Assembly (NCBI GenBank): GCA_963281155.1 | Contig: CAUJLY010000004.1 | Coordinates: forward strand, 5,208,001-5,272,000 | Direction: 5' to 3' | Length of the DNA stretch: 64,000 nucleotides | DNA from: Rhabditophanes sp. KR3021 | Taxonomy: Eukaryota; Nematoda; Chromadorea; Rhabditida; Alloionematidae | Part shown: positions 5,694-43,834 of the stretch, in pieces | How positions within the stretch are numbered: the stretch's first letter is position 1 | Layout of the letters: every line of letters begins with the position of its first letter | Made by a program: the position numbers and the translations under genes | The notes under the pieces: generated by a model | The model's database searches: none | Told to the model about the DNA's origin: nothing | What the model saw: only the letters and a program-made list of their open reading frames with translations

Positions 5694-8600
5694 ATGGCTC
5701 TTGTAAAGTTTAGATCTAATTTGGATCATTTGTTTGATAAGAACTTAAAGGATTTAGTTCGCGGAATACGTAGTAACAAGGACAATGAGGTATGTTTCAA
5801 TTATGGAAATATTAATAAATGTTTATGTAGTCCAAATACATCACTCAATGTATGGAGGAAATAAAGACAGAACTGAAGCATCCTGATACTTTTGTTAAGG
5901 CAAATGCAATTGAAAAATTGGCATATTTGCAAATGTTAGGATATGACATATCATGGGCCGCTTTCAATATTGTAGAAGTTATGTGTAGCCGTACCTTCTG
6001 TGTAAAAAGAGTGGGCTATTTGGCGGCAACTCAATGCTTTCGGGAACATTCAGATATCTTAATGCTTACCACAAATATGGTTCGCAAAGATCTACAATCA
6101 TCAAACTTATATCATGTTGGGATTGCTCTATCGGGATTAGCTTGCTTTGTAACACCTGACTTAGCTAGAGATTTGGCCACAGACGTGGTCAACTTGCTAT
6201 CATCATCTAGGCCATATGTCAGAAAAAAGGCTGTTTTATTGCTGTATAAAATCTTTTTGAAATATCCTGAAAGTTTAAAACCCACATTTCCAACTTTAAA
6301 AGAGAAATTGGAAGATGAAGATGCTGGAGTGCAATCTGCAGCTGTCAATGTTATTTGTGAACTGGCAAGAAAAAATCCCAAGAATTACATAACTTTGGCA
6401 CCCGTCTTTTTTAAACTTATGACGACTAGTTCAAACAACTGGATGTTGATAAAGGTAAATATTTTTGATATGGCTAGTTGTGAAAACAATAATCGAAAGT
6501 ACTATATTGAATTTATTATTTTAGATTATCAAATTATTCGGAGCACTAGTACCAATTGAACCAAGACTTGGTAAAAAATTGTTGGAGCCATTAACAAATT
6601 TGATTAATTCAACATCAGCAATGTCATTACTTTATGAATGCATAAATACAGTCGTTGCAGTTCTAATTAGTATTTCAAGTGGTGGCCCAGGTATACGAAG
6701 GGAAAAATATTTATTAAAACTAAAGGGGGATATCAAAATACTTATTAAGTTAATTATCAGAGGTCATTTTAAGATCGAACGTCATTTTAAGTAAGATGTC
6801 AGCAACAGCACATGCATTTCATGATGGTAAAATAGCTTGTAGTGTGAACGTTTAAAGTTGATTTATTTTTACATTTTCTGTAAGCAAGAGTCCAATTAGG
6901 TAGATAAAATCCATGGAAAAAAGTCGTCATGTTTATTTGGCTTGAACCAGTATCAGTAAACATCATGCATATATCAGCAAAGTACATTAAACTCGTTGTT
7001 TCATCTAAAGCTTTCTCACAAAACACTTTCTTCGAACATATGTAACCAACTAATCCATGTTTCAACTTGAGAACTTCACTTGGATGGTCAAATGCTTTGG
7101 TGAATTAGACGTCATATTAAACTCCTCTTCAATCACGTCCGTGTAAGCTTCAACTCTTGGCCTACTTCTATTTAGCAGCTTCCCATGTTCAGTTAAATTT
7201 AAGTCATCGTTTCTTTGAAGCAAACTAAAAAATGAGTTGGATATGGTGGCTTGCCTGGAACTAAAACGATTGGTCATTATTTAAATAGAGAACTTACCTC
7301 AGCTGTCGGAACTTCTTTTCTATCAGCAGACGACGACAGTTCATCAACAATATGTAGCTCTTTTCCAGAGGCTTCGTAGTTCAGTTGTCTCATACCAAGA
7401 GATACAGTCACCATCTCATCTTTGCTTCTCTTGAGATTGTCCTTGACATCAATTATCTTCATAGTTTAACTCCAGTTTAAGTGAATGGAGAACTAAAATA
7501 AGGAGGCAATAATTGATAGATGTCATAAGTTAAATAACAACATAAATACATTAGAAGCAATCACAAATTTGGAAGTAACTAATATTCATAATATAAAAAA
7601 TATTTTTTTTAAAAAGAAACCTTTGGTTTATAATTTGTTTAAAAATTACACTTAACACATAATATCTGTTTCAGGAGATCACACTGCTTCTATTCAATTG
7701 TGCGTTCAAAAGCTTGGTGTTTTGATAGAAGACTCCGACCAAAACTTGAAATATTTAGGATTACTGGCCATGGGTCGTATTTTGGCAACTCATCCAAAGG
7801 CCGTACAAGCACACAAGGATATCGTGTTGCGATGCCTAGATGATAAAGATGAAAGCATCCGTATTCGTGCCCTGGACTTGCTTTACGGAATGGTGTCAAA
7901 GAAAAATATAATGGAAATTGTGAAAAAATTAATGGAACATGTAAATTTGGGGATAATATTTTAAAACGTATTCAATGGGTGCACAAAAAGAAAAATGTTT
8001 TAAAATTAATTTTACGAGTTGACTGTTCTTTTAAAGACTCATGTATTTGACAAGTGGCAATGATTGTATGGTGTCAGAATTAGTTATCTGACGACAAAAG
8101 CATTCATTGAGATGGCTTCTACAATTTTAGCCGCATTTTTAGAAGGATAAATCTTTTTGATAAGTCCCGTTCAAATCCAACAATTAATGGATTAATAGAG
8201 AAGTAACATCGCACTATTTACTCCTTCCACTGCGATAATTCATTGAATTCTTTTTTGATCTCGCCGGCTTTATTGACGGGGTTGAATTTTTTTATAGATT
8301 CTATTAACTCCTTAAGATATCTTATTTTTCATGTCTAACAAGCGCAGTAGCATGCTCATAATAATTTCACAAGTTGAATACTTCAGGTCATTTCCGTCAT
8401 GCTTAGAATTACAAAAAGCAGGTTTATCGTACTTCTTTATTTGAGAGCTATAAACATTTGTTGTAAGTAGTTTTGTCACCTCAATTCCCAAGATTCTTAT
8501 TCACTCGTAATGAACTAGATTCAAGATCTAGTTGAAAACAGCTCCAAGAGATTGACTGGACGAGTCTTGGTTAGTCACACGCATACACTTATCTTAAATT

Positions 8601-11600
8601 TAGGCGATATCTTCTGAGGATTTAACAAAATAACACAAATGTCTACGTTAGTTTCTGTCTTGAACACATCTAATATTTTGGTCAATCACATTAAAATTTA
8701 AAAAAAACAACGTTTTGACGTATTGCATACGTTCATTTATTAATATTGTTGCTCATGTTGCAGGTAGACCAGGCTGAAGGCTCTTATTACAGAAACGAGT
8801 TGCTTTCGCGAATTACATCAATTTGTTCATACAACAACTATGCATACATTACTCAATTTGAATGGTATATTAGTGTCTTGGTTGAATTGACTAAAGTTGA
8901 AAGTGCTAATCATGGAAAATTGATGCATGGCCAACGTAAGTAAATAATAATAAAAAAGTTAATTAAAAGCTAACAAATATTTGAACTTCTTTATATTTAT
9001 TTAGATTGTTTTTATATAACTTATTTACACTTTTTTATCATAATTTATTTGCATTTTTAGATTCTAAATCCAATTCAACCAAGGGTGGATCAGGTGATAT
9101 AACAACTGGGCAACTGATTTCTGAACAAATTCAAGATGTTTCCGTAAGAGTGCAGAGTATCAGACACTTTAGTGTTAGCCAAATGGCTTTGCTGGTCGAA
9201 AACGGAACCTTACTTTTGGCAGGTTTGTTAAAATAAAAAGGGTAAAAATAGAGGATAAATAAGTGAATTATAAAGCTCATCTTAAATCAACACGTTCTTT
9301 GGCATCTAAAAACTCATCACAATTCGGTACTTTCTCTTTGCAAATTCGTTCTTTTATATCAGCCCATATAGTGTTGAGCAGATTCCAGAATAGCACAGAG
9401 TTGTCAGTGTTAGCTCTACGAATAATCTTTAAAAAAGTTGCTTCTTTCCGAATCATATTTTCCTCAGGTTCTTGTTTAGAAGCAAGAATAGGACTTTCTT
9501 CTTCATCGTCACTAATACAAATAACTTCAGGTTCTTGTTTAGGATCTAAAGTAGTTAATATATAATTTAACAGTTATATTAACCTATCAAGATATTTTTC
9601 TTTTCAGCAGCTTTTCTACCAACAAGATCAGCGTTGGTTAAAAGAAAATGATTAATAAGTTAATAGACCATTTAAACATACCTCTATCGATAAACGGTTT
9701 ACTTCTTACAAAAAAAGCACTGCTGACAATTCTTGAAACCTTGACATTAGGCTTCTCCTCCAAACTAGCGTCTCGTGCTAAATCACCACTCAATGCACGA
9801 TCTATTTCCTTATCTCTTTTTCTAGAATTCTCAGACATTTAGGTAAATGAGACCATAAATGAGACGATGTTGTGCAACTGAATCAAATGAGTAATTAAAT
9901 TAGGGCTCAAACATGATGACATGCAAATGCCTTTCAGCTAATGCTCATATTTCGAATGAACAACGTACTAAAAAGCTGTTGGTATACAGTGAATGTACTT
10001 TTAAAAATGATTAAAATTGTTAAACATCTATTATATTAATACTAAAATAATTTGGCAGGAAGTAGCCAGCATCGAAACAACATTAGCGAAGTGTTATTGG
10101 CAGCTGCGTGGATTTGCGGAGAATATGCTGAGCATCTCAGTGACCCACATAAGGTCATTGAAAGCATGCTGAAGACAAAAATTAGCTTAATGCCAGGGCA
10201 TATATTGAGTGTTTATGTCCAAAATATCGGAAAGCTTTATGCCATTTTGATAAACCAATATGAGAAAGAAGACGACTGGGACGCCGTTGAGACATTGGAC
10301 AATTTGATGTTGTCTAAATTACCCGAATTTCAAATATGTGACCATCTTGAGGCGCAGGAACGAGCCTGTAACTTACATGAATTGGTGAAGTTTGTAGAGG
10401 CTAAGCATAACTCAAGAGAAAAGATGGGAGCTTGTTGTTTAGAACTGTATGAAGGTGAATTAAATCCCGTTGCTGCCAAAGCCCAGAGAAAAGTACCCGT
10501 CCCAGAAGGATTAATCTTGGATACATGGATTGGCGAACCATTCCCAGAAACAGATAACGAAGAGTCTTCAGATGAAAGCGAGCCAGAACCTGTGACAAAA
10601 GGTCACAAACATGTTCATCAAGTTCCCTCTATTGAGAGCACAAAGTTAAATCATTCCAAAAAGATATCTAGTTCCGAGTTAAAGAAACAACGAGACCAGA
10701 TGGTAGAAAACAATCCTTATTATGTAAAGACATCCAAAAAGATTGAAGTGAAGGATGAAAAGAAAGTAGTTTATCCAATCAAAAAAGGTGAAAATGCATC
10801 CATCATCACAGAGTTACAAAGCCCCCTGGAAATACCAGGTGTCCTGGGAATGACACGTTACATGGCGCAAAAGGAAAATACTTTATCTTGGAGTAAAACA
10901 AAGAAGGAAAAAGTTTCGAGTAAAGGAAAGAAGAAAAAGTCTAAGAAGAGTAAGAAAAATGAGGGAAAAGAAGAATTATCTGTTCTCAGTTCTTCTCCTA
11001 GTGAAGATGAAGAAGAGCATGTTGTCGTTGACCATGTCGTAAATAGAGCTGAGGGTGAAATGCCTGAAAATGCGCTTAGCACTGATGAGGAAGTAGATGA
11101 AAATGATTTGGATAATGAATTTAAAGCACTAAACATCGATCTTGACGAACCTGTTAAGGAGTCTGAAAAATTAACTAGTGTTAAGCCATATGAAAGAGCA
11201 CCGGAAAAAGAGAGCAGAATTTATCATGTGCCCCCACCTTTGTTAACATCGGCATCAGCTATACTACAAACTGAGCAATTAAAAGTTAAGGAGAAAAAAG
11301 GAAAAGGCAAAAAGACAAAAAAAACAAAAAAGACCAATAAAAGCGATAAGGACTTAATTGTTGATATTGATCCATTCGCCACTAAGGAGAATTATGACGT
11401 CATTCAAAGTAGCTCCACAGCTGCAAATACTCCAAGCAAGCAAAATGATGAATTTTCACAATCAACTCCCCCATGTGATATGTATATTCCGATAGGAGAA
11501 AATGACAATTTGAAAATAGTTTACAGAGTATTAAAAATGAAAGAAAAATTTAGTGATATTACTATCGGTGTCATCTTTAAGAATAAGTCAACATTCAGCA

Positions 11601-23484: not shown

Positions 23485-26400
23485 ATGGATAACTCGTCAC
23501 TAAATGAGCCCACGTCATCTAGTCGTAGTAGATATGCCTCAGCGTCGCCTTTCAGACATTTTTTATCCTCATCTTCAAAAAGGTCTAAAGAATCCCCAGC
23601 AGGTTTTAAAATGACTCTTGGAGGAAGTGGGAAAAATCGACTCAGTAGGATTGAATCATTAGCAAACAATAAATGTATGATAAATGTTCCACTATACAAA
23701 ATAGTGTGCAATAATATAAACTTTTACCTATCTTTTTATTTTAGACCATAATGAAATGACAACAAACAATAAAAGTAATCCTTCAACTGTACAAGATATT
23801 TATTATGGCAAAAATGATACGATATTTGAAAATGTAAGTCTTAATAAATGTGATTTTATTTAATAATAAATGCATACAAATTTAGATATCTTACTTAGGC
23901 TGTTCGAAAATTAATAATGCGGTAAGTTTGATCATTTTGTGGATTGTTATATGTATGTATAAGTATCAACTTATAATATGAACTGTTTTAGATGGATCAA
24001 AAAGAAATGCTTCAAATTATGAAAACATTAAATAATGAGCAACAACATTCAGCCGTGTTAATAAAACTTGCAATCCCACCATTTGCATCCGGAATAGTAC
24101 GATTATTAGATTGTGACAATAGAGGTGAAATAATGACATTTTCAATTCATCGAATTAGATTATGCAGCAGAGGGCACCTTCAAACTAGAACATGCGAGTG
24201 CTTTGCTTTTAGTTATGACCATTATAATTCAGGGCAATCTTCATCAATGCAATGTCATGTCTTTCGTTCAAATGTACCTGACGGTGCTGCTAGAGCATTG
24301 TTTGCTTTTTCCAATAGTTTCAAAAATCAACCACCCGATCCATTAGAAGGTTTTGTAATACCAATGTCTAAAGATATTGAAATCATAGGAGAACATTCCA
24401 TTCCTGGGACAGAAGAAAAATATCAGTTTGAAAGTTACCTGGAGATTAGGGAAGACGATGGGAAAGGAGAATTTCAAAGTTGTCCTCAGGAAAATAATTG
24501 CTTTCGATTGAGGAGGGATAGGATTAAAAAAGTAATGGTAGTATTGAGGCAAATAAGTGGCCCAAGAAATCTTCCTATTAAAAGTTGCTTTGGATTGTTG
24601 TTAGGTAAGTATAGAATGTTGATCATCATAAGAAGTTTTTCATTATAACGAGCAGTCTTTTACGTAAGATCCCTTCTAATAAGTGTGCTTTAATTCGGTT
24701 TATGAAAATGATAATCGGATCATTTAAATTTTGAAAATAAATAAATCATTAGATGAATTATAACTCACCCTTTTTAGCTGCTGGTCGGAATTTAAAAGGA
24801 AGTGATATGCAATTAATGGATATGGAGTCAATGGGTCCAGCACCCCAGAACAAAAATGTCTATGTGATAGCAGGACTATGGAATCCAATAAAAGAAAGTT
24901 TCGAAGTCTTGAATACAGAAACTCCTAGAGAAACAAGAGTATTCATGACTGTGGCTGCCGATATCATTATTTCCGGTATCGAAGATTCAATTAGGTTTTA
25001 TGTAGAATGTAAAGCTAGGATTTACCACCGATACGAACATTTTAGTTCCGTTATTAGGCGTCCCATCATAGAGAAATATGATTTGGTGACAAAAGTAAGT
25101 TTTATTTATCTTATTAAAAATGGCGCTAACCAGTAGGGTTACTAGAACAACTGTGATTAAAAGTTTTCCGAATATTGCCTGCGATTAATTTATGTTTTTG
25201 TAGAACACTTTTTGTTTGTTTAATATCGACATTTGTAGTGTTTTCTATCATTTTCAATTTATATATTTTTATAGAGCATGTACATATCTGTAACATCAAA
25301 TTATTCAATTTGATTTAAATATATTCGTGGAGTGTAAACATACATATATTTATAAAAACACATTAATAGATACTTAATAATGGCTATTTCCTTTTAAGTA
25401 CATTAAATTATCATGATAGTATTGCTCAATATTTGTTCAACAGCTTACTTTTAAAATAGAAAATAGAGATACTCATTATTTGACTCAATCAATACGCTGG
25501 CGAGCATAGTTAGCACAAGACTCACTCACCATCTTTTCTTCTTTTTGAAACGTGTCCGTTATAAAATTGTATCCTGATTTTGAATAACAAATATCGGTTT
25601 TCTTATTTAATCTTTAACCCCTTTAATATCAAATTTTTCAGATGGACGAGAACGAAAACATCGAATCAGGTGCTAGTTTGTGTGAGACCATGGGATCATC
25701 GAATGAGAATGTCCCTCCTGTGAGTGATGATTTGAAAAAAGAAGAGTCCGATCCTAATCAAAGTTTAATGAAAGTTATATCGTTCGAGTCTGTTACAGAA
25801 CAGGATCGTTCATTAACCCGTTTAACTGTGGGCAAAAATCATCAACAAATGCCTACTCAGTTGATTCATCCCGCGGATGCAGATGATTCAGGTAAAACTA
25901 CATTGAACACCTTTAATAGTAATTTTTAGATCACGACGAACCTTTACTATCTGGGTCAGGGCATGTTAATCAAGAATGCAGTGAGGAGGTCATGAGTCAG
26001 TGGGAAGAATTAATCACCAAGTGGGAGGCTGATTTAGAAAATCGTCCAGTTAATTTAGGCCCATTGGTAAAAAATGGTATTCCAGATAAATTACGTGGGC
26101 GAATTTGGCAATGGATGTCTAAAGTTGTGGATCAAGAATTATCTGACACCTACTTTATTTTGATAGAAAAAGAATGTTCCTGCGATTCAGTAATATTAAG
26201 AGACATCCATAGAACCTTCCCAGCACATGAATTTTTCAAGGTAAATTAATTATACTAACTTTAACCTTTCAACGTACCATTCTCAATAAAAGGTACACTT
26301 CCACCACAAGTCGAACTGGCTTCATTCCTAGGTGTTTTAGTTTTTTTCTAAAATTGGTTGTCTTGCCAGTTGATCACTCAGATGAGAAACAATAGTCTCC

Positions 26401-28232
26401 TTGTTTGGATGTTGAGCCATATAGTTAAAAACACCAAATAAGAGGCGATGTTTGTGCACTAAAACAAACAAATGATCTCAATATAGCTATGTTTAATCAT
26501 AACATCGCCAAAAGATAAATAGCTTTCAGCCAATATTCAAATGTATAAGGTCTGACCGTAATGTTGGTAGTGAGGATCTTCAACTAATAAATACTTAAAT
26601 TTGAAAACAAAGTTATCACGCTAATAAACTTTTCAGGAGACTAATGGAGAGGGACAAAATGCTCTGTATAAAATATCCAAAGCTTATGCCCTTTATGATG
26701 AAGAAGTTTCCTATTGCCAAGGCTTATCCTTTCTAGTAGCTAGTTTGGTTCTTCACATGGAACAACACAAAGCGTTTGCGGTCCTTGTTAAAATTATGTT
26801 TGATTATGGGTTGAGAGACTTGTACAAATTGGGCTTCAATAATCTGCAACTGCGTTTCTATCAATTAAACAGACTCTTACAAACAGAGATTCCCCAATTA
26901 TACGCACATTTTGAGGAGATCGGAATTGAAACACATATGTATGCATCAAGTTGGCTTTTGACCATGTTTACTGCCAAATTCCCTTTGCAATGTGTTTTTT
27001 ACATCATAGATATATTTTTAAATGAGGTAAGCTATTCAAATATTACCTTGTTTATTTTTTTACATATTTTATTATTGTTTTGCTTATTTTATTATTGTTT
27101 TTACTTATTTTATTACTGTTTTTACTTATTTACTTAATTTCAGGGAATTAATACCATATTCAACATTTCCTTAGCGTTACTAAATGATTCAGTTCATGAT
27201 GTAAGCCAATCTTAATTTAGCATATAACACATTTAACGTTTTTAGTTTCTGGAATTAGATTTTGACAGCAGTTTGACATATTTTAGAGTCACACTTCCTC
27301 GTAAATATAGAACTGAAGAAAGTGCCAAGCGACTGATTCACAGAGCACTCAATCTTAATGTAATTTTGTCCTAAATATATCTAAATGCAATTTTATAGAT
27401 TAACTACAAAAAATTAGAAGAGTATGAAGTAGAGTATGAAGAGAATAAGGCTAAAGAATTAGAACTGATGGATCCTATTACTAGACTTGAAAAAGACAAC
27501 CAGAAATTGCGGTTAGCTAGCATTCGTTTGGAAACAGAAAATGACGATCTAGCCCATGAATTGGTGACTAGAAAAATTGAATTAAGACACAAATTAGATG
27601 CTACCGAAGAGCAGCTTGAAAGATCAGAAAGCAATGTTGTTAAATTGACTCGTCAAAATGTAGATTTGGAAGATGAAAACAAAAGTATAAGAGAAGAATA
27701 CTTGCTCGTAAAAGAAACTTGTAGAAGAGAAATGGATAGACTAGAGAAAGATAGTGAAAAGTTTAAAAATATTGGGGATAGCTATAAAGCAATATGTTCT
27801 AAATTAAGTGAACAAATTCACGATCAGAAGGAGTCGTTTAATGAAATTCAGAAAAGCTTACTTAGTGCTATCTCAAATTGTGAATCCTGTAGTTTATCAG
27901 CGTCTGAATGGATAAAAGATTCCCCTCGTAACTCTAAGAGAGTTTCCCCAATAAATGAAGAAAACAGTGGCATTCGAATGATCCAAATGTTGGAAAAAAT
28001 AGATAATCAAGACGGAAGGATCAAACAATTAGAACTGGAACTAGCTCAAACTAAATTGGCACTAGTAGAATCACAATGTCAAAATCAAGATTTGACTCAT
28101 CAAATGAACACTAACATTATAAATGCAACTGAAAACAACAGACCAGCATGGTTTAAAAAGACTATAAGCTCATTTAAGGAAGTCAAGGGATCTTTGAAGA
28201 GTCAAGTAGAGGGCAAAAATTTAATCCCATAA
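23485..28232 (+). CDS. tbc-11: RABGAP1 / TBC-11 Rab GTPase-activating protein
   Basis: Rab GTPase-activating protein with PTB, TBC and coiled-coil regions. Eleven exons, all in phase: 23485..23674, 23745..23833, 23886..23921, 23992..24604, 24778..25094, 25642..25891, 25930..26240, 26637..27026, 27144..27200, 27246..27359, 27399..28232; 1066 residues, almost the human length. The PTB domain starts at ISYLGCSKIN. The conserved spacer EPLLSGSGHV precedes the TBC domain, which has the arginine finger in ILRDIHRTFPAHEFF and the glutamine finger in SYCQGLSF, so it should be catalytically competent. The C-terminal coiled coil contains ENDDLAHELVTRKI and LELAQTKLALVE, then the basic-hydrophobic end. 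Introns after exons 5 and 7 are longer and carry antisense fragments. Confidence 0.94.
26337..26459 (-). pseudogene. Antisense coding fragment in RABGAP1 intron 7
   Basis: A minus-strand frame of about 40 codons reads LFGVFNYMAQHPNKET and SHLSDQLARQPILEKN to a stop. It has a natural amino-acid mix in an AT-rich intron of 396 nt, and is antisense to the host. It shows no GIY-YIG signature, so relation to the other nested relics is only suggested by position and orientation. Confidence 0.25.
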
Positions 28233-28832: not shown

Positions 28833-31800
28833 TTATAATCCTTCAGGATGTTGATTAGCTTTTCTTCTGTAGTCTCCGTTTGCATATATATATCCGTCGT
28901 TTTCGGCTACTACGCATTGAACGATCCCCTCAAATCCAGTTGTAATTTTGAACTTCTGGTTATATTTTTTCTCCAAATCCTTTGTCAACTCACTAGGAAC
29001 AGGAATCTCATACTGTGTGATGTCCGGAGTAAACTGATTATGTAAGGTTGGACTATCAATAGCTTGCTTGATAGATTCGCCAAATATTAAATTACGTACA
29101 ATAGCTTTCGACATGGCACTAATTATTTTACTGCCTCCGCTGGCTAAAACAAAAGCATATTGACATTTATAAGAATTTATGTCTGATTTGTACAAATTTA
29201 CACATATTAAGTAGTACATTCCCACATTATTTTTAAAGTAAATCAATTTTTTTAAATTAATATTCATGCGAATTCGCTCAAATAATCTTTTTATGTTGTT
29301 TTTGTGCTAATGTTAACTATACCAATTTAATCTTCTCAGGTTGGTTCAAATCACGACTCTGAAGAAGATACAGAAGAGGTGAAAGATTTTACTCCAAGTC
29401 AGCCTGTTGTACTTTCCCAAGTATCAAGAGTTAGCAGACTGCAACCAATAAGACGATCTTGGATGTTAAGAGAATATGTCTGCTAACAAGGTCAAGCCAA
29501 AAGTAAGAGCTTCTCTCACAGATCACAAGTTATTGGCTAATGTATGCGATGATATGTTGCTTCTGAAGATTTAACTATTAAGGAAAAAACAGAATTGCTC
29601 AAAATTTTCACTGGTTCTATATTAATACTCTTCTTGATAATGGATGGTCATTTGAAGATGCTAAACATGCCATAAAATATGTCGGGGACTTATGTAATAG
29701 AAACGAGGCTAAAACAACACAGATATGACCTCTATTGTTACATCAAATGGGAGTTTGTTTTTAACAAAAAGCAGAACGTTTCCGACAAAAAAGAATCTGA
29801 TTGCAGAAAATGTAGGTGCATTCTGATTAATGCAGTTTGAGGTCAACTCACAAATAGCGACTCCGGAAAGTCCTTTCTAGATTCTGTTTCAAATGTGAAC
29901 CCTCAAACAAACTCGAAAGTCGCCCAACTGATCCTCAATGAGTTCTCAAAATGTGGATATGGAAAACACATTCTCAGATATTAACATGTATTTTTTGTTT
30001 TCTTATTAAATAAATCTTCTGATTTTTGATTAGTCAAAAAGTTAATTTGTTTTGCGTAAATTTTTGAATATAAATTACCTAAAACAGAAAAAATTAGTTG
30101 GGAAGATTAAAGAAAGATCGAATACCTCCTACAACCATTTTTACGTCACCACTTGTTTTGTTATAGATAACCATGGGTGACATTGAACTCATTGGTCGTT
30201 TTCCAGGAGCAATAAAATTTGTTTCAGATGGTGCAAATCCAAAGCCGTTGACTAATCTGTAATTGGGAAATATTAGTTATTGTGTTAATAAATTCCATGT
30301 CAATTTATTTAATTAATAAACGCTTGTTTGCTTGTCCATGAATAACATGCAATGTATTCTAATATAGAAAGTAAAAATGGTGTGATCAACGGTAAAGATA
30401 TATTATCAAAGCTCAGACGTATATTTAGCAATAAGGTAAGTTGCCTTTCCATTTATTTGTTATTTAAATAAAGTAAACTTAAGTTAGTCTATTTTTCGGT
30501 ATTTATTAAGAAGCATATTTCTCGTCAATATTAAATATATTCTCTTACATCTTTTATACATTTATTACTCTTAAATTTTTAAATTATAGTTTTGTATGAG
30601 CCTTCGTTTTTGACAAAAAGGAAAAGTTTCTAAGGCAAGTAACTATTGCTGAAAAGAAATTAGTTATTGTCAAAAAACAATATCAGTCGAAAAAGATTGC
30701 TGAAAATACTGAAGCAATATTTATTAATGCTCATCGTGGACAGCTGACAAATGCTGATTCAGGAAAAGAATCTTTTGATTTTGTACTAGCTATGAATTCG
30801 CAGACAAACTTGGAAGTAGCTAAATTAATTATGACCCATTTTTTAAAATGTGACCATTTAGAGTATGACTTAAACTACTAATATGTCTTCCGTATTTGTT
30901 TACTATACATATATGATCTTTAATTATATCTGTTATGTATTTATCCCCCCTTCCCTTCAGTACCCAATTGTGCTGAAATCGTCCATTTCATCATTCCAAA
31001 CTATTCCCAGTGTTGGAGACTGTACCACAGCCCCAAACCATCTATTAATTGTACTTGTTGCAGACACGCCATTCCCTTCTGAATCTAAGGTTGATACATG
31101 ACTGGTTCCATGATCTGCCTTTTGGAATTGATCGATTCCACCATAATACGAAGTATTTTGAGAGAACTTTCTAACTCGATCTAAACACCATACATATAAT
31201 TTTAGTATTAGAATTAAAAAGAGTCATTTATTTTTAAGTTTGAATGTGTAGTTGGGGTTCCAAACCAACCCTCTTTTAGTACCTTGTCATTTTAAATGTG
31301 TATGCTACTACAAGCTATTTGCGTGTCATGGCTAGTTTTACGATCGAATATATCTTTACTAATTTATCTTAGTGCCACAAGATCGCCTCTTATTGGATAT
31401 TATTAAACCTACTATGGCTGATAAGAAGGAAGTAATTTTAGGTAAAAGAGGAGATGAGGGTATTTCTCGATCATTCGCCAAAAGTCTCAGTATCAAGAAG
31501 AAAATTGCTTGCCCTGATCATAGAAAGGTGTTTGATTGCTAATTCTGTAGGTGCTGCCAATCTCTCAACGGCATTGCTGCTTTTAAATGTAAACATTGCG
31601 AAAGGTGTTTCAAACCTAAAACTGGTCTGACTAATCACGGAAAAAATAATTTTTGCCAAAAAACGATGGATGCTGAAATCTTCAACCGGGACAAAACTGC
31701 TGCTTATGTTTTGGAATCAATAAAAGCTAAAGACGGCGATGAAGAAGGGTGCTGGGTGTATGTAATGATTGATCCAAGAGTTGTACATGGCAACTGGACC

Positions 31801-33768
31801 AAAGCTGGAGTCAAGAGAGCGATTCGTTACATTGGGGAGACGATAGAATCTGGCCTAAGAATGTCAAATCACAAAGCATGCTTCAAACACGCAGTTGACT
31901 TAGAGGTGTTGTTCGACAAGAAGGAGACTTCATCAAAAAAGTTGTCTATGATAAACTGTTTGGTGAGAAGGGAGTTATTGTACTAAAGAAGTGGTATTAA
32001 TCAAAAGAAGTTGCAGAGAATGTTGAGAGCATCCTAATTGACTCTCTCAGACCTCAACTTACGAACTCAGATAGTGGAAAGTCATCATTCGAAGAAGTAC
32101 GTCTCATGTTTCAAGAAATGAATGTCGAGGTAGCAGATCTTATTCTAGGTGATTTGTTCAAAGCTTGTAATGATATTGAAAAAGCTGACTATCTCACAAT
32201 TTTTTAAATATGTTTAATAAAGTTCATACCTAATATCCATTTCGAGTATTCTTTGGTAGTCAAGTTTTGTGATAAAAATTTAGATTCAGGAACGAAATCA
32301 ACATCTCCAAGTAAGGTTCTTTGAGCGTACGCAAATTTACTTGCTTCGATAAAATTGTGATAAAACTCTGGGCTGTTGTAAAGATATTCAGGGTTTCTGT
32401 TTGGACTGTCTTTGTAAATATTTGACATGATTGAAATCAAAAGCTGGACAACAGTAAAGGATGCTGGAGGCGGTGGCCCAACCATCACTAAATCTTCGTG
32501 AAAGTGGTCATTTGACAATGGAGTATCATATTCAACTGGTTTGTAATTTTGTAAATCAGCTTTGGTCAAAATTCCACCGTTTTCTTGAATCTCTTTGATT
32601 ATGATATCAGCTATTTCACCGTGATAAAAAAGATGTACGGGATCTTTTGAGTCAGCAATTTTTTCCAATGTATTTGCAAGTTCGGGTCTGAAATGTAGAA
32701 CGATTAAATTAAGACCGACTATTCAAAAGAAGCTGTTTCTAAATTCATTCTTGTGAAGAATTTTTTATTGTTTCGTTACTCAATCTTTTTAATTTTCTTG
32801 CACTTTTAAGCTCTTTTAATTAATAAGAACAAATAGCAGAATCATACCTTTTCAAAATATCACCATGAACCCATACTTTATTAGTTGCATTGTTAAGCCA
32901 CCCCTGCATAGACGGTAAAGTTCTAAAATGAGCCTCTTTGATTTTTAAAACATCTCCTAAATGGGCAAGAAGTAAATATTAATGTAAAATCAAGGAAATC
33001 TTTTTGATAATTTAAGTTGTGTAAATGAGTATTTTTGTATCCCATTTTCAGCTCAATAATTTTTTCCTTTTGACTTTGTTTTCAACATACCTAAAAATAA
33101 AATAAGTAATTAAATTACATGGAGATTCACCTAAATATTCTGATATGCCTATTCCGTTTCTAGATAATTCGACAGCTGGCATAACTAATTCTTTCCATGA
33201 TACCTTGCCACTTCCGTACTTTGTATAAGCCAAGTAATAACCATGTAGTTCACCTTGAAGGGTTAAAACATAAGCACTTAATTTAAGTCATCTAAATAAT
33301 TACCTGGAACGCCAATGGCTTTGTAACCATATTTACTTAACAATTCGTCACCTTTAAACATGTCCTTTGTAGCTGAAGCAGGTGCTGTTTCTCTTGCATC
33401 AATTACATTTGCCCGTTGTGTAGTTCTATTGTAAATTGTCATAATAAAACCCCCACCTTAAAATTTACTTAATAAAAATTATTTTTGAATTTACCTATGC
33501 CTGACGATTGAGGATTGGTGACACCAAGACAAAATAAAGAAGCAATAGAACTGTCTACTGCGTTACCGCCTTTGATTAAAATGTCACGTCCGATTTCAGA
33601 GCACAGTCCATTGTCAGAAGTTGTGGCTGCTTTACGAAACTTTCCTAACAATGAATATGATGGTTCCGGCCAGTTATAACGGTACTTTTGTCCAGAAGTC
33701 CATTCTTCACTTCCAAATACAGAAACAAATAGCACACAAAGGGACACTGTATAAATCATACCCACCAA
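28833..33768 (-). CDS. ggt: Gamma-glutamyltranspeptidase
   Basis: Cell-surface N-terminal nucleophile hydrolase that cleaves extracellular glutathione and transfers the gamma-glutamyl group. Eight exons in phase: 33495..33768, 33304..33456, 33131..33253, 32848..32956, 32230..32687, 30964..31180, 30126..30256, 28833..29143; 591 residues, the usual size. An N-terminal hydrophobic segment (about 4-18) should anchor or export it. Family motifs in order: GRDILIKGGNAVDSSIA, NPQSSGIGGGFIM, NVIDARETAP, GVPGELHGY, LLGDVDFV, then the autoprocessing and nucleophile Thr in HGTSHVSTLDSEGNG, TSTINRWFGA, PGKRPMSSMSP and GASGGSKII, LHNQFTPD. The three 3'-most introns (1049, 707 and 982 nt) each contain one antisense nuclease-like relic; the other introns are 122 nt or longer only modestly, down to about 38 nt. 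Confidence 0.93.
29340..29994 (+). pseudogene. GIY-YIG-like nuclease relic, copy 1, antisense in GGT intron 7
   Basis: Plus-strand coding remnant interrupted by stops and frameshifts. It opens with an acidic segment (HDSEEDTEEVKDFTPSQP). Later it reads SFEDAKHAIKYVGDL, aligning with the AIRYIG strand of copy 3. It then has KKNLIAENV, and after a frameshift and one in-frame stop GQLTNSDSGKSFLDSV and SKVAQLILNEF to a final stop. The same order and spacing occur in copies 2 and 3. The decay is advanced, so no product is expected. Confidence 0.65.
30603..30881 (+). pseudogene. GIY-YIG-like nuclease relic, copy 2, antisense in GGT intron 6
   Basis: Best-preserved C-terminal part of the family: about 92 codons without a stop, from FVFDKKEKFLRQV through KKLVIVKKQYQSKKIAENTE and FINAHRGQLTNADSGKESF to a natural stop. 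The order (basic helix, V-I-V strand, Ser-Lys then an E-x-x-E helix, I-x-A, LTN-x-D-SG) matches the C-terminal half of the LEM-3/ANKLE1 GIY-YIG domain. The N-terminal half with the YIG strand is not preserved, so it is a truncated relic. It lies antisense in a 707-nt intron. Confidence 0.65.
31374..32207 (+). pseudogene. Zinc finger plus GIY-YIG nuclease relic, copy 3, antisense in GGT intron 5
   Basis: Most complete copy, about 278 codons with one stop near 31543, one frameshift near 31930 and another stop near 32005. In order: LLDIIKPTMADKKEV, a C2HC zinc finger (CKHCERCFKPKTGLTNH then C), the nuclease first strand CWVYVMIDPRVV, second strand AIRYIGET with RMSNHK, then after the frameshift KKVVYDKLFGEKGVIVLKKW, SKEVAENVESILIDSLRP and QLTNSDSGKSSF, ending about 22 nt from the host splice donor. 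The VYxxxDPR and YIG strands, a Glu in the last helix and LTN together match the LEM-3/ANKLE1-type GIY-YIG domain by eye. The lesions mean it is not functional as it stands. Confidence 0.7.
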
Positions 33769-40580: not shown

Positions 40581-43500
40581 CTAATCATAGGATGGTCCTG
40601 TTAAGCCGCGTGTTTGATAGGGTAAGATTGACTTGCAAAGTCGTTCGTGATCCATGCTCATAATAGTATCATCCTTTGGAAAAACTGCTCTAAATGAGCC
40701 AAACGGCAATCCTTCCAATTTATTTAATGTGGAATCAGAAAGAATAGGTATGATGCTTTCTGATTCGCGCGATGGGGACAACAATGGCTCATTTGTTCCA
40801 GCAACTGTCAAAACAATGTTTCTTCTTCTATCTATCACACCACTTCCGGCCTTTTCTAATGATGGTTGACCAAATTTACTGATAAAACTTTCTGATTCTT
40901 TCACACAACTTTCAGACATTCCTAGTAGTAATGTAGATCATTAGTAATTGTTTTGCGAGTTAAATTATATTTATCATCAATTTTTATATGTATTGAGTTT
41001 TTCAAGATCACCGTATTTAAAAACCCTGAAAACAGACAGAACATTCTGGATGTTTTCCTTGATCACCTTCGTTTGGTTTTTACTTGACAGTGTACTGATT
41101 TTGACGACTAAACATTAACTCCCAACCAATCATCAATTTACTCATCGCTCACTTCATTACTTACAACTCACTTATCAATTGTACATAAATACATGGATTA
41201 TATCCACGTCCTTGCTCTCTCTATATTTGAATATTATTCTTACTTCCGTTAATTTATATATGCTTTAAAAGTCAACAGACGTGTCCCTTATCTCCACAAA
41301 TTATTGCAATAAAACAGCAATTCAAAGCTAAAATCTACGTAGAATGCAAATGGTTAAGGTTAAATGGCGAAGCTTATTATGATGGTAACATTGCTCTTGC
41401 AATCGAAAGGTGTATTATAGTCTATGCTTCGGGACTCATCAATCAAGATATAGTATTGAAAACTGATAATTCCTCAATTTACTCACGCTCGACCAAATCA
41501 AGCAATTAGGATTCTTTCTTCTGAGAATGCCAAATTGATTGACCAACGTTTGGCAAAAAAGATAGTTGTTCTCAAAAATGCTATTACTACTAAATTTTAG
41601 TGATACTTATGTTTCATTATCTATTTTTAAATATTTGTGTCCCAATAAACCTGGTAGTAATGTAATCGGTGTAATTTGAGATCGGTTTGAACTAAACGGT
41701 TGTGATTGACGCGTGTCAACAATTAACCCTTTTGCAAATTTGCTGATTATTGCTTCAGAAAGCCTGCGAAGACCTTCTGATTTATATTTATGAGAATCTA
41801 TGACTTTGTTTGAAGCAACATCTCTTTTTCTTCCAAAGGACATTCCCTTTTGAGATGCATTATTTGCACAGCCAGCAATGAATAAGGGATTTATAGTTTC
41901 CGATTGCAATTTACCCTGGACAAGTTCTGTCTTTCCGTGATCAATTTTGCATGATGTATCTCTGTGTCTTCCAAAAGCTCCCATTCCTTTTTGTGTTTCC
42001 CTGGCTGGTCGTTGTTCGAAAGGAATAATATTTGGTAGAATAACTTGGCTAAAACGATTTATAACAATTAACTGTCAAATTATTTATAATTAACATTTGG
42101 TTAAAAATATATGTCTTTCCATCACATCACAAACTCATAAAACTTACTTTTCACGTACTCTCCTTGCATATCGTTTGGTTGGAGCAATTCGTTCTTCTTT
42201 TAATATATCGCACAATGACTTCTCAATAGGCGGCGTAGGTATGTTTTTGAATTGCTCTTGCATGTTTGCCACGTGATCCAAATAAAATGGCATATTTTGA
42301 AAAGTGGCAGAAATGGGTGTGGGAGCAGGAGAAAATAAATCTTCGTCAAAACATTCTGGATTTTCACCTATCAGCATATTAACTGCGTCATCATCAAGGT
42401 TATCGTCAAGATCATCGTCTGCAATTCCCGAAGGGTCTTGCAAATCAGTGATAATTTTTAACTTCCTTGGTTTCGGTTTTTCTAAATGAAATGTTTTAAG
42501 TATATACCAGAAATACTGTTTTTATTGCTCACCTTTGTTCTTTTCTTCAACTTCTTCAGCTTCCAGTTCCTCGTCACTGTTGTTATTTTCATCTTTGATG
42601 TCATCTAGTTTATTTTCATCTAACATATTTTCAGCTTTTTCTTCTTCTTCCTCTTCCCATTCTTCGTCTTCATTTTCCTCGTCGTCAATTTTATCATCTA
42701 AATGAATATAACGAATGAGATAACTTACATATCAAATTTCCTACCTTCATTTTTTAGTAACTTTTTCTCACCTACTAGCTTTTCGTCAACTTTCTTCGCC
42801 AACTTTTCATCGGCTTTAACTGGAATAGATTCAGTCTTTTTGATTGGTTTAGAAGCGGAGTTGTCCTCGATCTTTTTTGCTGGTGTAGCACATTTTACTT
42901 CATCTTTCTTAGGCACATTTATTTCATTTTTTGCAAAAGCTTTATCTTCAACTTTTTTAACAGTCTTGTCTTCAGCTTTTTTAACTGGCTTGTCTTCAGC
43001 TTTCTTAACTGGCTTGTCTTCAGCTTTCTTAACTGGCTTGTTTTCTGCTTTTTTAATTTGCACTTCATCTATCTTCTTAGCTGCCAATGATTTAGATTTT
43101 TCGACTTTCTTTTCTTCAGGCTTTTTTGATTCTTCCACTTTTTTAGTCGGCGTTTCCTTTGCTTTAGAATCTTCCACTTTTTTAACTTGCACATCTTTTG
43201 CTTTTTCTACTTTCTTGTCATCAACTGTTTTAATTGGAGTTTCTATTTTCTTATCTTCGATCTTTTTGACTGGTGCATTTTCCACTTTTTTATCTGCTTT
43301 TTCTTCCACTTTCTTAATTGGTGTTTCTTTTTGCTTTTCTTTTACTTCTTTAACTGATGTTTCCTTTAGCTTTTCGTCAACTTTTTTAACTGGTGTTTCT
43401 TCCACTTTTTTGACTGGTGTTTCTTTTGATTTTTCTTCCACTTTTTTAACTGGTGTTTCTTTTGACTTTTCTTCCACTTTTTTAACTGGTGTTTCTTTTG

Positions 43501-43834
43501 ACTTTTCTTCCTTTTCAACTTTACTTTGTTCGGGCTTTGTTAATTTTTTTTCTGCAGCCTTTTCAGCTTTCTTTTCTTCAGACTTCTCAGCTTCCTTTTC
43601 TACGGCTTTTTCAGATTGCTTCTCATCAGGCTTTTCAGCTTTCTTTTCTTCAGCTTTTTCAACTTTCTTTTCTTCGGGCTTTTCTATCGTATTGCCTTCT
43701 GGTTCTTCCTCATCCTCATATTCCCATTCTTCTTCATCCTCATATTCTTCCTCGTCTTCTAAACCTTCCAGTATCCGCTTTTTACGCTCTTCTTCGGCTT
43801 TATACTTTTGATACCAGCCAGAAAGACCACTCAT
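40581..43834 (-). CDS. Lys/Glu-rich repeat protein with C-terminal calponin-like (CLIK) repeats
   Basis: Five exons: 42745..43834, 42533..42697, 42148..42481, 41651..42048 and 40581..40921; the total closes exactly to 775 residues. It begins MSGLSGWYQKYKAEEERKKR, followed by an acidic block, then about 300 residues of alternating Lys/Glu with tandem units KKVEEKSKETPV and KPVKKAEDK, probably extended or coiled. Exons 2-3 add more acid-rich sequence. The C-terminal third carries calponin-type actin-binding repeats: ARETQKGMGAFGRHRDT, NNASQKGMSFGRKRDV, and more diverged ones around LLPGMSESC and GLPFGSFRAV. CLIK repeats bind and stabilise actin filaments in nematode muscle (UNC-87 type). The combination suggests a muscle thin-filament protein; exact orthology unknown. 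The last intron (729 nt) holds an antisense relic. Confidence 0.75.
41303..41600 (+). pseudogene. Antisense coding relic in the last intron of the calponin-repeat gene
   Basis: Plus-strand remnant reading KAKIYVECKWLRLNGEAYYD, ALAIERCIIVYASGLINQ and, after a frameshift, RILSSENAKLIDQRLAKKIV to a stop. The AIERCIIVYASGLINQ stretch resembles the Arg/Glu helix plus LGL-x-x-LTN end of the LEM-3/ANKLE1 GIY-YIG domain. It is antisense to its host and lies close to the host splice donor, as with the transpeptidase copies. Identity tentative. Confidence 0.4.
42950..43510. repeat. In-frame coding tandem repeats (27-bp and 36-bp units)
   Basis: Inside the first exon of the calponin-repeat gene. Near 42955-43050 a 27-bp unit encodes KPVKKAEDK about four times. 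Near 43390-43505 a 36-bp unit encodes KKVEEKSKETPV about three times nearly perfectly. The near identity of copies at DNA level points to recent expansion by slippage or unequal crossing-over, and predicts length polymorphism. Confidence 0.8.

Follow-up and report, generated by a model that had tools for sequence, protein, structure and literature searches.

Antisense nuclease relics in introns of Rhabditophanes sp. KR3021 as probable remains of an autonomous introner

Why should three successive introns of a single nematode gene each contain a decayed nuclease gene on the opposite strand? The question is raised by a 64,000-nucleotide stretch of the Rhabditophanes sp. KR3021 genome (assembly GCA_963281155.1, contig CAUJLY010000004.1, positions 5,208,001 to 5,272,000), referred to here as the window, which carries a gamma-glutamyltranspeptidase (GGT) gene on its minus strand. 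A first-pass annotation had placed plus-strand relics of one nuclease family in separate introns of this gene, and its description was borne out: three consecutive introns were delimited, each containing one relic, and the GGT exons, once joined, formed one open frame that aligned to E. coli GGT (PDB 2e0w; 1.7e-49; residues 6-365 of 375). The relics are probably, at a rough probability of 0.7, old copies of an autonomous introner, i.e., a mobile element that gives rise to spliceosomal introns and encodes its own enzyme; this reading rests on sequence comparison. The features of the GGT gene, in coordinates of the window, were as follows.

29144 to 30125, minus strand: intron A of the GGT gene, holding copy 1; defined by splice sites and joined frame; exon-end/intron-end similarity 5/8.
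30257 to 30963, minus strand: intron B of the GGT gene, holding copy 2; defined by splice sites and joined frame; exon-end/intron-end similarity 2/8.
31181 to 32229, minus strand: intron C of the GGT gene, nearly all of which is antisense copy 3; defined by splice sites and joined frame; splice model score 9.70.
29612 to 30011, plus strand: copy 1, comprising the end of the core and the C-terminal part, with many frameshifts; tblastn E 1.5e-19 to family peptides.
30582 to 30890, plus strand: copy 2, restricted to the C-terminal part; matches family peptides at tblastn E 1.9e-29.
31206 to 31525, plus strand: copy 3, 5' end block; DNA matches in 10 fetched loci; 5'-end profile 2.5e-35.
31575 to 32227, plus strand: copy 3 body, comprising zinc-finger motif, second GIY-YIG unit, C-terminal part and 3' end; DNA matches in 49 fetched loci, some overlapping one another.
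31588 to 31656, plus strand: C2HC zinc-finger-like motif of copy 3, identified by eye; zf-C2H2 E 0.004, under the Pfam cut-off.
31660 to 31929, plus strand: GIY-YIG core of copy 3 (IDPR..RYIGET), used as search query; 97 genome-wide matches at E <= 0.001.
31181 to 31191, no strand: left copy of the presumed target-site duplication, CTAAACACCAT; holds the minus-strand acceptor AG; 8/11 bases identical to 32230-32240.
32230 to 32240, no strand: right copy of the presumed target-site duplication, CTAATATCCAT; belongs to the coding part of the upstream exon; 8/11 bases identical to 31181-31191.

The resemblance claimed for the three copies exceeded that of shuffled sequence. The best translated scores were 148 (copies 1 and 2), 95 (1 and 3) and 183 (2 and 3), and local shuffling of the first copy, done 200 times for each pair, never reached the score (maxima 48, 50 and 55). 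A set of shared sequence elements had also been described in all three. Here the family likeness held, while the (A/I)xxY(V/I)G strand was missing from copy 2, and copy 1 had no clear family match upstream of about 29612. The reading frames of copies 1 and 3 were broken by stops and frameshifts, copy 2 being an open-frame fragment. The family match of copy 3 ran from 31462 to 32225 on the plus strand, and the middle of the full element, containing the first of two nuclease units, seems to have been deleted between 31525 and 31575. Among the fetched loci, the nearest DNA relatives of copy 3 were a copy on contig C1 (88% identical) and another on C5 (87%), and the best DNA match of copies 1 and 2 was locus L047. 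Since the nearest relatives among these loci were not each other, the GGT copies look like separate insertions, and tandem duplication inside the GGT gene was rejected.

The nuclease was best characterised through one intact member. Locus L051 (C1:5776300-5779300) contained a single long open frame of 509 aa with two zinc-finger-like plus GIY-YIG units, lying antisense between MIR and RIH exons, as found in ryanodine/IP3 receptors. This frame matched PF01541 above its cut-off (1.7e-5; 25.4 bits against 22.6), the best stretch falling in the first unit (148-192), and the same model matched 7 of 17 relic cores at E <= 1, the best at 4.5e-4. The second unit, which is the one seen in the window, gave sub-threshold matches only (PF19239, 0.0011; TIGR01453, 0.0023; I-TevI 1mk0, 0.021; T4 endonuclease II, 0.13), in lists that also held unrelated weak matches. 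By eye, both units seem to show the conserved GIY, YIG, Arg, Glu and Asn positions. Membership of the relics in one family within the GIY-YIG superfamily is thus supported by these profile matches, and the zinc finger that had been placed in front of copy 3 was likewise recovered as a zinc-finger-like motif. No homologue of the L051 frame or of the family alignment was found among 5.8 billion proteins at the thresholds used.

A narrower kinship, with the LEM-3/ANKLE1 nucleases (PF22945), had been proposed at first and was not sustained. The relics share the superfamily with these nucleases and show DPR-, YVG- and LTN-like words in similar order by eye, and the host genome contains strong PF22945 loci at C2:2186518 (5.7e-48), C1:2498294 and C6:4280, plus 20 weaker ones; the first of these reads as an intact LEM-3-like GIY-YIG domain. 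An origin of the relics by retroposition or duplication of the host's own LEM-3/ANKLE1 family is nevertheless very improbable. The piece of copy 3 stayed below the PF22945 cut-off of 27 bits (E 0.094, 13.1 bits), one of 17 members matched (E 0.011), and L051 had no match at E <= 5, with no LEM domain or ankyrin repeats among the Pfam matches of its 509-aa frame. Comparison of the family profile with the host's own LEM-3 was weak (P 0.0099, over 33 columns only), and the family had its own conserved ends, a two-unit design and many copies. LEM-3/ANKLE1 membership was therefore not supported.

The number and distribution of copies were examined in the whole genome (44,845,725 bases in six contigs, C1 to C6, the window lying on C4). 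The search for further and intact copies that the first-pass annotation had suggested proved productive: besides the L051 frame, there were 97 matches to the second-unit core, 81 to the first unit and at least 150 to the C-terminal part, for which 150 of 611 initial candidates were scored. Merging took in 93 of 97 core, 150 of 150 C-terminal and 76 of 81 first-unit matches, the rest overlapping or adjoining an entered match, and produced about 239 copies; this rough count is too low because 150 of the 611 C-terminal candidates were scored, and elements with parts more than 900 bp apart may count twice in it. The merged copies were unevenly spread, with 229 on C1 to C4 (densities of 4.6 to 10 per Mb) and the other 10 on C5 and C6 (about 13.6 Mb combined, 0.74 per Mb), a scarcity for which a sex chromosome or another origin of C5 and C6 is a possible cause. 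Of 36 pairs of neighbouring copies less than 10 kb apart, 28 shared a strand (binomial p = 0.0006), as did 11 of 12 within 3 kb (p = 0.003). The element reached about 2.1 kb at its longest with both ends seen, and the introns containing it measured about 0.4-2.1 kb and held remains of the nuclease gene. Beside one copy (L033, 2003-2983) was a NACHT-domain frame (6e-11).

Most nuclease copies read here are now broken. Their divergence from the open frame of L010 (second unit) was 0.189, 0.152 and 0.368 at codon positions 1 to 3, and the third position was the most divergent in 46 of 46 copies; with L048 as the reference this was so in 44 of 44, and with L051 in 2 of 2. A 5' non-coding control (150 bases) gave 0.193, 0.170 and 0.232, the third position being highest in 5 of 10. 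Because divergence is concentrated at third codon positions, the nuclease protein was evidently subject to selection in the lineages from which the copies came.

The limits of the element were compared with those of the introns by aligning 3' ends from 24 loci, and 5' ends from 11 loci, each with the window copy. Element homology began near TTTTGTAAATTAAA and stopped near TTTAATAAA, and at many loci the splice sites of the gene on the opposite strand were situated just outside. The element almost fills the intron, antisense to its host; the distance from its 5' end to the acceptor is nearly fixed, and its 3' end frequently falls within a few bases of the donor. Splice models were sought for 29 copies with both ends, using a home-made score that combined donor, acceptor and open reading frame. 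A score of at least 8 was reached by 23 of 29 in antisense, 3 of 29 in sense at the same loci and 13.2% of random spans (n = 600); for a score of at least 9, the figures were 15 of 29, 0 of 29 and 4.2% (n = 600). In 18 of 28 models, 15-20 nt separated the acceptor from the beginning of the 5' profile, although any distance of 0-49 was permitted. In 16 of 28 both splice sites lay close to the element, with at most 16 nt between donor and 3'-end profile and at most 20 nt between acceptor and 5'-end profile. With both element ends so close to the splice sites, these 16 models leave little room for an older intron around the element.

Two observations concern the ends themselves. In one subfamily (L037, L038, L058, L069, L070 and L071) the terminal tail motif seemingly occurs in an extra copy; in the five of these with models the donor was about 40-67 nt past the 3'-end profile, and several donors were GTACAGTTTA. 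At 31206-31420 of the window, and at other 5' ends, the sense strand of the element had an acceptor-like stretch, TTTACTAAT...TTTTAG, before the first ATG, which perhaps serves the element's own splicing or trans-splicing.

The strand of flanking frames was recorded as well. In 18 of 23 loci the longest flanking open frame (at least 50 aa) ran opposite to the element (the set being L051 and L053-L075, with L058 omitted as its longest frame was the nuclease). Of 40 flanking frames scanned with Pfam, 34 were on the opposite strand, where 19 frames from 18 loci exceeded the cut-off and L048 fell just under it, and 6 were on the same strand, where one exceeded it, namely a PI4-kinase frame 961 bp from the L039 element that is probably the next gene; the scanned frames were picked by hand, part of the set from the opposite strand only, and serve to name hosts, not to test orientation. 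The host or flanking genes included GGT, AP-3 delta, RabGAP, RGS, Sec3, phosphorylase, GH116, DOP1 and a ryanodine/IP3-receptor-like gene, with a collagen recognised by eye (L016). The window itself contained seven copies, of which GGT and AP-3 delta had three each and a RabGAP gene had one, and all seven were antisense to the host gene. Those outside GGT were as follows.

9223 to 10058, plus strand: AP-3 delta gene intron, sites set by eye; exon end and intron end both TTTGGCAG; AP-3 delta exons identified by Pfam.
9224 to 10053, minus strand: element copy filling the AP-3 delta intron, antisense; DNA matches at 9224-9315 and 9584-10053; 5'-end profile at 10033-9841.
7950 to 8164, minus strand: further copy, C-terminal fragment, between AP-3 delta exons, antisense; tblastn 5.3e-13, blastn 3e-23.
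6709 to 6825, minus strand: further copy, small fragment, between AP-3 delta exons, antisense; blastn 2.4e-16, tblastn 2.3e-5.
26241 to 26636, plus strand: RabGAP-TBC gene intron; exon joining restores the domain (PF00566 E 9.1e-42 on the joined protein).
26419 to 26627, minus strand: 5' end of an element copy in the RabGAP-TBC intron, antisense; 5'-end profile 2.1e-28, blastn 1.6e-14.

If the introns arose by insertion into exons, the upstream exon and the intron should end in duplicates of a single target. With automatic first-ranked splice models for 28 loci, 8-mers anchored at the splice sites shared 4.46 identities when taken from the same locus and 3.60 when taken from different loci (p = 5e-5); for exon ends and intron ends of all 38 introns, the values were 4.39 and 3.51 (p = 5e-5). 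The effect was also present among 17 loci fetched after the idea had formed (8-mers 4.24 against 3.52, p = 0.004; 10-mers p = 0.002). Clear cases were L016 (ACTTTCAG), the AP-3 delta intron described above, L045, L061 and L069. Exon ends and intron ends thus resemble each other, as would be expected after a target duplication of about 10 bp. In addition, GG was found at exon-end positions -12 to -7 in 21 of 38 introns, compared with 30 of 188 control AG|GTR sites (Fisher p = 1e-6), with exon ends carrying it at -10/-9. GG at -10/-9 is not known to be part of the donor consensus, and its presence reads as a target preference.

Several observations weigh against the reading as an autonomous introner. 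The intact copy L051 was not matched by either end profile, and its borders are thus undefined. Copies in the codon test were not phylogenetically independent. Among the both-ended copies L064 had no splice model, nor had L074, and the models of L039 and L050 were poor; moreover, the 3' end of the window copy was fixed manually, and the four remaining window introns were located by eye. The anchored similarity was modest, with six introns at least 1.5 below the chance mean of 3.5/8 (L075 with 0, L050 with 1, and L039, L060, L068 and GGT intron B with 2 each), the last six loci fetched gave p = 0.054 (8-mers) and 0.062 (10-mers) when taken alone, and an unanchored free search for target duplications was negative (15 loci, p = 0.43 and 0.68). 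The home-made splice score favours AG before the donor and thereby imposes some of the target motif, the AG of the exon end being partly due to it. No terminal inverted or direct repeats were detected beyond those of shuffles (with a typed 29-base end consensus, 3005 of 5000 shuffles were as good; very short repeats may remain).

In 12 of the 28 models at least one of the two end distances was larger than the limits given above, which would suit an ordinary mobile element that entered existing introns near their 3' splice sites, with selection against sense copies producing its antisense bias. Transposons in introns commonly show such a bias, and a preference for acceptor-like TTTNAG targets would likewise produce a near-fixed distance to the acceptor. 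Such an origin is doubtful, however, given that the donor was also close to the element in most models, and its duplication would be expected inside the intron, so the similarity of exon ends to intron ends would be left unexplained, as would the GG of the exon ends.

Insertion of the introner type might instead have been effected in trans, by the transposase or reverse transcriptase of another transposon, with the nuclease as a passenger or homing helper. The odds given to the several explanations are not exclusive in this respect, since an element moved in trans would still be an introner. No terminal repeats tie the element to its enzyme, and the genome does have reverse transcriptases (37 RVT_1 matches), so that movement in trans is a possibility of some substance, if on the unlikely side. 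The coding selection on the nuclease during its spread argues against it, as do the absence of any other coding region from the long copies, as judged by eye, and the distance of 4375 bp between the nearest RVT_1 match and any merged copy. Taken together, the absent terminal repeats and the lack of a nearby reverse transcriptase appear to offer no pointer to another route of insertion. Penelope-like retroelements use a GIY-YIG endonuclease in animal genomes and have a reverse transcriptase, whereas no RVT_1 match occurred within 4 kb of the copies here; a link to them was rejected on the distance just given. A DNA transposon with terminal inverted repeats was rejected also, its expected end repeats being no better than shuffles in one test on the 29-base end consensus, although very short repeats may exist.

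The autonomous introner proposed here would operate as follows. The element would encode a protein with an N-terminal part followed by two zinc-finger plus GIY-YIG nuclease units, and this nuclease would cut the target and drive movement. Its targets in exons would be coding-strand sequences with a loose likeness to TGG-NN-TT-NN-AG, and insertion would duplicate about 10 bp. After an antisense insertion, the 5' splice site (GT) would come from the last bases of the element and the 3' splice site from the AG that ends the duplicated target; the spliceosome would then take out the element with one target copy and so restore the message. Antisense insertions would survive in this way as putative intron gains, within which the nuclease gene would decay.

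Comparison with described systems places the element nearest to known introners (Gozashti et al. 2022, PMC9860276). In those genomes, similar sequences form introns in many genes and some families have short target duplications, as here, where a similar element forms introns in many unrelated genes and its ends coincide with intron ends. The family of Fig. 2C in that paper brings its own 5' splice site and co-opts one at the 3' end, which is the arrangement suggested for the present element. The described families have median lengths of 30-654 nt, whereas the introns here, of about 0.4-2.1 kb, contain remains of a nuclease gene. Many non-autonomous transposons became introners according to the same source, whose main text contains the words nematode, endonuclease and GIY-YIG 0 times. 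In open-licence PMC full text on introners with GIY-YIG or nematodes, no description of a comparable element turned up. The element would accordingly appear to be an introner of a new variety, known in kind and distinguished by the remains of its own nuclease gene.

The placement of a nuclease gene within an intron is shared with shintrons, described in 2025 from mirusviruses, in which GIY-YIG (132) and other endonuclease genes occupy GT-AG spliceosomal introns that have no group I or II features (PMC12768974). A homing intron of this type, whose nuclease cuts intron-less alleles so that recombination copies the intron in, is quite unlikely to account for the relics. Shintrons are viral, mostly specific to a target gene and proposed to home, and homing holds to one site; the present copies are found in an animal nuclear genome at about 200 places, in unrelated genes with differing flanks, and show antisense orientation, a short target duplication and a double nuclease. 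The spread to many genes thus disfavours homing, though allelic drive could still make a contribution. Relatives of the intact member L051 were not found in viral contigs or phages, and a viral origin was rejected on that ground.

Other features of the window were noted in passing. The segment 7412-7655 had about 68% DNA identity to 8612-8853 of L039, outside the element of that locus. At 42702-43834 there were 369-aa open frames on both strands; since the minus-strand frame encodes a Lys/Glu-rich repetitive protein, the mirror frame is probably its by-product. A Ground-like domain (PF04155), of a type not known outside nematodes, was also matched by Pfam and points to such an animal as the source.

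The origin of spliceosomal introns is an old question, and many known introners are said to derive from non-autonomous elements (PMC9860276); a study of nematode introns considers the reasons for which the origins of gained introns escape recognition (PMC9169325). The present genome seems to hold about 200 introns with a readable source, the remains of a candidate mobility enzyme and one intact frame of it, and this makes both the gain of introns and the enzyme testable. Opinion is evenly balanced on the broader proposition that the element represents a new class of eukaryotic transposon, whose sole enzyme is a two-headed zinc-finger GIY-YIG nuclease that cuts exons at degenerate TGG..TT..AG sites, and which hides as a spliceosomal intron; it would perhaps be the first autonomous introner of animals, a cellular counterpart of viral shintrons, and the agent behind a burst of intron gains in one lineage of nematodes. 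The findings suggest that new introns may be made by an element with its own cutting enzyme. If true, this would supply the eukaryotic counterpart of shintrons that eukaryote genomes apparently lack, as stated where shintrons were described (PMC12768974).

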